NCBI GenBank assembly: GCA_020859985.1
Contig: JAJBVD010000039.1
Location: 1-64,000 of the forward strand
DNA from: Clostridiales bacterium
GTDB taxonomy: Bacteria > Bacillota > Clostridia > Lachnospirales > Lachnospiraceae
Length of the DNA stretch: 64,000 nucleotides
Direction of reading: 5' to 3'
Part shown: positions 9,415-53,864 of the stretch, one piece after another
Position numbering within the stretch: position 1 is the stretch's first letter
How the letters are laid out: each line of letters opens with the position of its first letter
Notes under the pieces: generated by a model
What the model was told of the DNA's origin: nothing
The model's input: the letters and a program-made list of their open reading frames with translations, nothing else
Databases searched by the model: none
Program-made: the position numbers and the translations under genes

Positions 9415-9433
9415 TAGCTCTTGTATTGTAAAT

Positions 9434-9547
9434 CGAGTAGGGTGACTTTGTCCTACTCGCCGCGCGGGCTGCGTCCAGCAACAGCTGGAAAAATTCCTTA
9501 CGCAGCCCTGCGCATTATAAAGCAGCGGTCAATAAAAGGCCGCTGTT
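9434..9547 (+). repeat. Family B intergenic element, copy 2, with terminator-like hairpin
   Basis: Hairpin I pairs CGAGTAGG (9434-9441) with CCTACTCG (9452-9459). Hairpin II pairs GGGCTGCGT (9466-9474) with ACGCAGCCC (9500-9508), with an inner stem CCAGC/GCTGG, loop AACA, and an A-rich CCTT linker on one side. TGCGCATTATAAA follows, then a local hairpin AGCAGCGG/CCGCTGTT (9521-9547). It fills the folD-cobU gap. Confidence 0.85.
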
Positions 9548-19845: not shown

Positions 19846-19875
19846 AAGAGTGGGCCGTGTGGTCCACTCTTGTTT
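19846..19875 (+). terminator. Terminator-like hairpin inside the rimP leader
   Basis: AAGAGTGG (19846-19853) pairs with CCACTCTT (19864-19871) and is followed by GTTTA. It lies downstream of the promoter at 19788, so it may act as an attenuator for the rimP operon. Confidence 0.6.
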
Positions 19876-19958
19876 ATGCACAGGGGCGCGTAAGGTGTTT
19901 TGTGGCTTGCGCCACACGCGTCCCGCGCAGACGAGTAGGGGACAGGTCTCTCTACTCG
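19872..19958 (-). repeat. Family B intergenic element, copy 3
   Basis: On the minus strand hairpin I pairs CGAGTAG with CTACTCG, and hairpin II pairs GGGACGCGT with ACGCGCCCC, with the inner stem GTGGC/GCCAC and loop GCAA. Compared with copies 2 and 6, both sides of the inner stem have changed together. The conserved A-rich CCTT linker is present. Confidence 0.85.
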
Positions 19959-20012
19959 TTTGCACTGGGCTGAACTACGCGTTATGCGCGCATGTAGACT
20001 TGGGGGAATCAA

Positions 20013-44137: not shown

Positions 44138-44182
44138 AGAACCGTGCCGTGCGGATCCGCAGGATGCACGGTTCTTGTTTAT
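44138..44182 (+). terminator. Terminator between SCIFF gene and maturase
   Basis: AGAACCGTGC (44138-44147) pairs with GCACGGTTCT (44166-44175), the loop contains a GCGGATCCGC palindrome, and TGTTT follows. It leads into family B copy 4 and probably lowers maturase expression relative to the peptide. Confidence 0.75.
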
Positions 44183-44232
44183 GCGCAGAGCCGGGCAAGG
44201 TGTATTGCGGCTAAAGCCGCATCCTGCCTGAT
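44176..44232 (-). repeat. Family B intergenic element, copy 4 (partial)
   Basis: It keeps TGTTTATGCGCAG, the CCTT linker and a perfect inner stem GCGGC/GCCGC with a TAAA tetraloop (44207-44220), but lacks the CGAGTAGG hairpin. Confidence 0.75.
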
Positions 44233-44271
44233 CAATAGTATAAAACTGTAACTTAAGAGAGGTGTCATGCT

Positions 44272-45849: not shown

Positions 45850-45935
45850 CATCGTCTGCATGACGGGCAACTGCCGACGCAAAACGGTACCGGATATCTT
45901 GTGGCAAATTATCAGGTGCCGAATCATTTTCGTAT

Positions 45936-45988
45936 CGAGTAGGGCGTTTTTTTCTGCGCATAAATAAGCAACCGTTTAAAACCGTTGC
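45936..45988 (+). repeat. Family B intergenic element, copy 5 (internal deletion)
   Basis: CGAGTAGG is joined almost directly to TCTGCGCATAAATA, so hairpin II is missing. The adjoining local hairpin GCAAC/GTTGC (45968-45988) is retained. Confidence 0.65.
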
Positions 45989-53625: not shown

Positions 53626-53740
53626 TTGTACCTCCTGTTGCTGTATTTGTCGCAACTGCATAGATAGTTTTTGAGGAAAAGGAAAGAAATATACGATAAA
53701 TTTGTTAGATCAGAACCAGAATCCTCGTTTACTACAAAAT

Positions 53741-53864
53741 CGATTAGGAGGCGGCTTGACGTCTCTGCGATCGAGTAGGAGACGGCTTGTCGGCTCCTAC
53801 TCGTACGCGCGAGCTGCGTCCGACGCCAGTCGGAAAAACTCCTTACGCAGCTCTGCGCATTATA
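53741..53864 (+). repeat. Family B intergenic element, copy 6, with duplicated first hairpin
   Basis: CGAGTAGGAG (53772-53781) pairs with CTCCTACTCG (53794-53803). GAGCTGCGT and ACGCAGCTC form hairpin II with inner stem CCGAC/GTCGG and loop GCCA. A 31-bp degenerate copy of hairpin I precedes it (53741-53771). TGCGCATTATAAAA leads into the adjoining terminator hairpin. Confidence 0.88.

Follow-up and report, generated by a model that had tools for sequence, protein, structure and literature searches.

A mobile two-hairpin mini-element behind terminators in Lachnospiraceae, with ends like those of group IIC introns

What is the two-hairpin sequence at positions 9434–9547 of a Lachnospiraceae contig, and why does it recur between other genes in changed but still paired form? 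The window considered here is the whole stretch of 64,000 nt of contig JAJBVD010000039.1 (assembly GCA_020859985.1), in which a sequence-only reading had pointed to six such places (2484–2567, 9434–9547, 19872–19958, 44176–44232, 45936–45988 and 53741–53864). The sequence belongs to a large family of mobile elements; their mobility and their intron-like ends were not seen in that reading. The explanation that we favour, tentatively, is a non-autonomous mobile mini-element (85–92 nt in aligned intact copies) that has the tips of a group IIC intron and uses the IIC kind of target.

The type copy is intact and occupies 9431–9515 on the plus strand (91.2 bits with covariance model R1; fold z −6.85). 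It consists of a first hairpin, H1 (9434–9459), a linker and a second hairpin, H2 (9462–9513), the latter containing an inner stem, a bulge of 11 nt (A-rich/CCTT) and a single T bulged out. Across the family, the H1 stem is formed by CGAGTAGG and CCTACTCG, and a short linker separates it from H2. At the base of H2, GCGC pairs with GCGC and a single T is bulged out; H2 further has an outer stem of nine pairs, an inner stem of five pairs that ends in a short loop, and on one side a bulge of 10–11 nt that typically contains TTCCTT (AAGGAA on the opposite strand). The single T is left over when TGCGCA pairs with the upstream GCGC. A locus-specific, terminator-like inverted repeat, recognised in the sequence and by hairpin scan and assigned to no strand, abuts the TGCGCA tip of the type copy at 9521–9547. 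In the intron-like sense, which is here the minus strand, the type copy reads as a T-rich flank followed by ATGCGCAG ... CCTACTCGAT.

All six places exist, and the single architecture ascribed to them is complete in three and damaged in three. The second intact copy lies at 53769–53860 on the plus strand (89.4 bits with R1); directly before it, 53738–53768 is, by eye, a remnant of another H1 and thus a tandem insertion. The third, at 19876–19961 on the minus strand (81.3 bits with R1), stands behind a hairpin in the leader of a gene which we take to be rimP-like, and about 45 nt resembling a second remnant come next. The minus-strand copy at 2487–2570 is degraded (34.5 bits with R1), with the inner stem of the second hairpin lost; its tip in the intron-like sense is GTGCGC, as in full introns. 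A truncated minus-strand copy at 44181–44253 (23.9 bits, E 0.03 with R1) has H2 only, H1 being lost. The plus-strand sequence at 45934–45962 is, by eye, a derivative with an internal deletion and both tips preserved (ATCGAGTAGGG ... TGCGCAT); it is not among the 67 R1 matches in its own genome, drawn from the best 150 of 1295 candidates. The locus-specific hairpin beside the TGCGCA tip, with T-rich sequence reading into the element, had been reported for every copy and is indeed present, by eye, at six of six places.

Both strands of the element fold well. In the orientation first described, three intact copies have fold z-scores of −6.85, −6.24 and −4.77, with none of 200 shuffles as good in each case; the opposite strands score −6.84, −5.52 and −4.46 (0, 0 and 1 of 200 shuffles as good). 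A scan of the window with Rfam gave only a tRNA and no family at gathering score over an element; a relaxed scan of seven element loci gave two matches that overlap an element, each scoring far short of gathering. Known RNA families were ruled out as the identity of the element by these scans, which bear out the impression that no described family could be recognised. A second dispersed repeat of about 50–60 nt (GGTTGCTGCGTGCCAGTGGCACGCG..TTTAGCAACGACCGGAGCG) occurs inside some long element copies and also elsewhere: in the genome that holds the window (G000) at L229:337–394, L230:360–433 and L232:317–376, and in the relative G009 at L240, L243, L244, L254, L270 and L272.

The family is far larger than six copies. 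With one copy as query, BLAST gave 36 matches in the same genome at E ≤ 10. A covariance-model search, which the sequence-only reading had proposed, revealed many further copies in the genome, the genus and the family. R1, built from 14 copies, finds at least 67 matches in the home genome at E ≤ 10, at least 50 of them below E 2e-4, among the best 150 of 1295 candidates. In the genus, 38 of 47 genomes match at E ≤ 0.1 (the home genome included) and nine have no match; there are up to at least 94 matches per genome. At family level, matches at E ≤ 0.01 come from 68 of 299 genomes and from 67 of 298 sampled genera (home genome included; best 14 candidates per genome). Exact-pattern matches in named records belong to Lachnospiraceae and Clostridiales MAGs, one labelled goat rumen. 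Searches with one copy as query and with one exact pattern gave no match to phages, plasmids or viruses. No publication describing such elements was found in the open-licence literature, as covered by titles and abstract openings; the catalogue of 3161 candidate structured RNAs outlined in PMC8040213 could contain the motif unrecognised.

Among distant relatives, 36 matches were aligned from 33 family- and genus-level loci, and most end ..CTACTCGATT or similar behind a T-run. Six loci in other genera (L352, L355, L358, L359, L360 and L362) keep H2 with an AAGGA-like bulge next to an unrelated H1, five of them without a T-run. H2 may be the older core, and the intron-like 3′ end may be a property of the terminator-targeting branch. 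L362 holds three related copies within about 330 bp.

The stems covary, as first described from the window. In the 14-copy alignment, 14 of 27 pairs show double-sided change, with 45 double-change cells against 16.8 (sd 3.2) after shuffling; the number of pair types is not above that of the shuffles (123 of 500 as high). In an alignment of 103 matches (93 distinct), 23 of 27 pairs are changed on both sides in some copy, and 352 cells compare with 101.3 (sd 12.2) after shuffling, none of 500 shuffles being as high. This alignment was fitted to the covariance model and so leans towards it, and relatedness inflates the counts; 96.4% of its cells are paired, and sliding the partners, a control that preserves relatedness, gives at most 32 double-change cells. 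The repeat family and its fold are solid. Departures from pairing favour neither strand clearly: there are 88 G-T against 50 A-C in alignment A3 overall, 53 against 46 without two subfamily pairs, and 15 against 11 in alignment A2. The 40 best-scoring rows have 23 G-T against 2 A-C, a ranking by score that itself favours G-T. These departures fit decay after insertion, or folded DNA; they do not prove RNA.

The element is mobile, as is evident from filled sites that are empty in relatives and from identical copies amid unrelated flanks. At the 53741 site, G009 is without 116 nt (53745–53860), the tandem H1 remnant included. The copy at the 44176 site is absent from G009 and G013, where the junction has GTGCA, perhaps a remnant tip. 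At the 45936 site, G013 has an intergenic stretch without the element, and the whole stretch is missing in G009. At the 19872 site, an uninterrupted leader with the same hairpin is found in four relatives (G008, G018, G011 and G012); G009 and G013 carry a longer, degraded sequence. G009 also has the L049 site without the element, and at L050, L058 and L234 it seems to hold decayed or shared older copies. The junctions are fixed to within 2–3 nt and target duplication is not visible. Copies identical to each other and set in unrelated flanks are found in G007, G010 and G020, and at four distinct loci in G050, where two pairs of overlapping contig ends were counted once each. Head-to-tail tandem copies stand at one place at L212, L068, L072, L088, L208, L144 and L040, as expected from repeated insertion at the same site.

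The targeting of terminators is equally solid, and it is one-sided. A strong hairpin (an inverted repeat scoring at least 12 and starting within 25 nt of the tip) lies beside the TGCGCA(T) tip in 72 of 94 copies and beside the other tip in 11 of 94, with 7.9% in shuffled flanks. The 94 copies are those with flanks long enough among 95 left from the 103 aligned matches after removal of repeats and N stretches; in seven of the 72, the hairpin counted is H1 of a tandem neighbour. The hexamer preceding ATGCGC has four or more T in 100 of 127 copies; for the hexamer following the other tip, the figure is 16 of 127. According to passages in PMC4424553 and PMC8919778, group IIC introns insert after intrinsic terminators; the hairpins, T-runs and empty sites place the element directly after such terminators too. 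Most IIC introns examined here sit, by eye, behind a hairpin or a T-rich stretch.

Some neighbours of the element are themselves of regulatory kind. At L081 (1275–1586) a copy lies beside a lysine riboswitch, whose terminator may be the target of the element. Near the copies at L057 and L059 there is sequence which we take, from its motif, to be T-box-like. The AAGGA bulge was considered as a site of pairing with the T-run; it fits most T-runs, and a similar motif in full introns misfits several flanks by eye, so that the idea remains a guess.

The closest likeness between element and intron is in the ends. In the terminator-first sense, the element runs T-run, ATGCGC, H2, H1 and typically CTACTCGAT or CTATCCGAT, the next base usually being T. 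Full IIC introns of the same bacterial family run GTGCGCC, domain V, domain VI and CTACTCGAT; at the loci examined they have a short domain VI end, and of 19 intron 3′ ends read, 16 are followed by T and 3 by C. Two 3′ classes of intron occur in the genus, CTCCTACTCGAT (G046, G030, G037 and the home genome) and CCCCTATCCGAT (G008, G010, G012 and G019). The home copy, at G000:C6:40005–41344, is a group IIC-type intron with its protein split into two frames and a domain V/VI end ..CTCCTACTCGAT. In other genera, nine introns also end CTCCTACTCGAT and four other loci end CTCTACTCTAT or CTCTACCCTAT.

Over ten bases (the last nine and the next), 38 and 13 of 127 distinct element copies match the two intron classes exactly, and a third class, CTACCCTATT, is shared by one element (L348) and an intron of G077. 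An intron 3′ class is thus matched by 52 of 127 elements, against 2 of 20,000 random decamers; the pool of flanks from which these were drawn also contains neighbouring elements. Because the copies are related, the end classes and not the copy count are the real evidence. The AY 3′ end of group II introns is found in the element, whose commonest end is ..GAT, with 51 of 127 copies matching one of the two local classes. The 5′ tip is ATGCGCA in 88 and ATGCACA in 20 of 127 copies, and GTGCGC in at least 2 of 127; intron 5′ ends are GTGCGCC or GTGTGCC. Relative to the GUGYG feature of group II introns, the element has A as base 1, with ATGCGC or ATGCAC in 108 of 127 copies. At one site (L147/L281) the two stand together: the intron ends ..CCGAT and an element (65 bits) follows without a gap; at L296 a remnant seems, by eye, to follow an intron. 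We think that the match of element ends to those of IIC introns is specific and real, and that it may reflect either common descent or mimicry.

The interior of the element differs from that of an intron. Domain V (RF00029) is matched in the home genome on contig C6 only and at no element (strict filters, 78 candidates scored), and is found neither in the window nor in the relaxed Rfam scan of seven element loci. At the position equivalent to the bulged branch-point A of domain VI, the element has a paired base that is often G; pair 9–41 is UA in 45 copies, CG in 26, UG in 9, AU in 1 and other in 9. In H1 the 5′ strand complements its partner almost perfectly, which is not the case in domain VI of introns. 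According to passages in PMC7161350, IIC-type introns rely almost entirely on hydrolysis for splicing when the ribozyme reacts in the absence of the intron protein. An element of 85–92 nt has no room for a reverse transcriptase or maturase and encodes no gene.

Judging by tips and position, H1 would be a domain-VI-like 3′ hairpin and H2 an enlarged first hairpin of domain I, with domain V and the reverse-transcriptase gene absent. Such an element may spread as a short RNA, or as its DNA copy, inserted behind terminator hairpins by IIC-type machinery that is provided in trans; a similar dependence on trans factors is assumed for the group III introns of Euglena. The element shares with IIC introns the target behind terminator hairpins in fixed orientation, the 5′ RTGYRC tip, the 3′ CTACTCGAT or CTATCCGAT tip and the T or C that comes next; some genomes contain both, and in one case the two directly adjoin. 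In contrast to the introns of about 1.9 kb, the element has about 88 nt, no recognised domains II–V, no reverse transcriptase, A as base 1 and the branch A paired or replaced, and the presence of introns does not track that of elements.

Candidate drivers exist in the genus. Reverse transcriptases were searched across it, and an Rfam scan of 11 loci yielded several group II introns with IIC-type proteins; the resident enzyme at L147 is IIC-type, its best PDB match being GsI-IIC RT (E 9.5e-124). A search for the element around 30 RT loci and L194 gave one strong hit (L147, beside the intron), a second, weaker hit that overlaps it, and a weak, partial match in L170. In the genus, IIC-like proteins (at least 42% identity to the G046 protein, short pieces included and large proteins of other types excluded, by eye) are found in 7 of 20 genomes with at least 50 element matches against 3 of the other 27, a weak tendency. 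Family-wide, hits of intron-encoded protein (IEP) at E ≤ 1e-40 occur in 7 of 23 element-rich genomes (at least five matches in the family-wide search) against 7 of 23 element-free ones, and IIC-like hits only, by eye, in 3 of 23 against 7 of 23. G046 has eight identical IIC intron protein genes (C1, C2, C7, C9, C11 and C16) yet one weak element match, which shows that introns can multiply without the element.

RVT_1 gave no match in 5 of 12 element-rich genomes examined (G099, G133, G188, G218 and G282). G013, with 78 element hits, has a single RT hit far below the group II cut-off; the single RT hit of G050, which carries recent identical copies, is of defence type UG26, and no intron trace was found there in 40 contig starts (one end per contig, about 70 contigs in all). 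The UG26 reverse transcriptase (L387, G050:C13) adjoins a second ORF of 310 aa. RT proteins of copy-rich genomes were classified as UG26, a retron type and several weak scores, with no type common to the genomes examined. This mismatch of drivers and copies lowers the claim of mobilisation in trans without closing it, because multicopy introns can drop out of MAG assemblies and a non-autonomous element can persist after the loss of its drivers, which may come and go.

The alternative that survives best, and one we hold to be rather unlikely, is a REP- or MITE-like mini-transposon of single-stranded DNA: an unknown transposase would recognise the folded hairpins and join the element beside terminator hairpins, and the likeness to intron ends would be convergence on the same kind of site. 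It agrees with hairpins at both ends, a fixed orientation, the lack of visible target duplication, departures from pairing that point clearly to neither strand, internal-deletion derivatives that retain both tips, and the presence of identical copies in a genome where no group II RT was hit, and yet it leaves the 3′ end classes shared with local IIC introns unexplained. REP/BIME with RAYT and mini-elements derived from IS200/IS605 are small dispersed intergenic hairpins, as is the element here, which differs from them in one-sided terminator targeting, intron-like ends and the lack of a Y1_Tnp link. The obvious enzyme, Y1_Tnp (PF01797), was searched for in 47 genomes and gave no hit in the well-assembled, copy-rich G007, G014 and G016 and others; around Y1_Tnp hits, the element was found at 0 of 30 loci at E ≤ 1. 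The suggestion of a linked REP-associated transposase finds no support, and REP/RAYT identity was rejected, no RAYT gene flanked by copies having been found at those loci.

It is improbable that the family consists of relics, that is, of internally deleted IIC introns that moved long ago and now only drift. Truncated and damaged copies are common, and the seemingly decayed or shared older copies of G009 are in keeping with such drift; against it stand identical copies beside unrelated terminators (G007, G010, G020 and G050) and compensatory change in most pairs, observations that demand a source which kept its fold and remained active.

A cis-acting regulatory or mRNA-stability element, placed after terminators because it functions there, is just as improbable: it would suit the adjoining terminator-like hairpins and neighbours such as the lysine riboswitch and the T-box-like sequence, but the distribution is patchy within the genus and whole elements are absent at orthologous sites. 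Conservation also bears on this reading. In four orthologous pairs the element is identical at 88/88, 84/85, 87/91 and 85/92 positions, with 0.77 to 0.99 in the 150-nt flanks; in no pair does the element fall below the average of its two flanks, so slight constraint is possible, but in the most diverged pair (85/92) one flank is better conserved than the element. Selection for folded RNA or folded single-stranded DNA, as first proposed from the window, may hold in so far as the fold covaries; neither strand is favoured, and there is no clear excess of conservation over both flanks in the four pairs.

For a mini-element with IIC intron tips, the nearest known counterparts are reduced introns. 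According to passages in PMC2882425, ORF-less introns can be driven in trans; in Thermosynechococcus, non-autonomous copies of ORF-less group II introns exceed full ones in number and depend for their movement on the protein of another intron. Those introns differ from the element in that only parts of domain IV, with the ORF, are deleted and full introns are present in the same genome. Bacterial ORF-less introns are described as rare in passages of PMC4424553, where group III introns, known from Euglena chloroplasts, have about 90–120 nt and sometimes domains I and VI only. The element resembles group III introns in size (85–92 nt), in the lack of domain V and in its putative domain I- and VI-like parts, that likeness of H2 and H1 resting on tips and position; according to passages in PMC4424553 and PMC2882425, trans factors are thought to be needed by group III introns. 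Group III introns interrupt genes and are spliced, whereas the elements lie behind terminators. It is a doubtful further step to call the elements bacterial group III introns, that is, retroelements of about 88 nt reduced to the first hairpin and the domain-VI hairpin, needing a group II core and RT in trans, present in dozens per genome and outliving their drivers.

New here is an element whose ends are like those of resident group IIC introns at the same kind of site. Elements with intron tips but without domain V would escape intron searches. Even if a DNA enzyme is the mover, a family that marks terminators and occurs in 67 of 298 sampled genera amounts to a large component of these genomes that annotation lacks. 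If the elements are bacterial group III introns, they would stand to full introns in a bacterial SINE-to-LINE relationship and would represent a living stage between introns that splice themselves and introns for which a common machinery does so. Mobilisation in trans, if true, would offer a tractable bacterial model for intron fragments coming to depend on a shared catalytic core, a dependence that has been proposed as the stage linking group II introns to the spliceosome.
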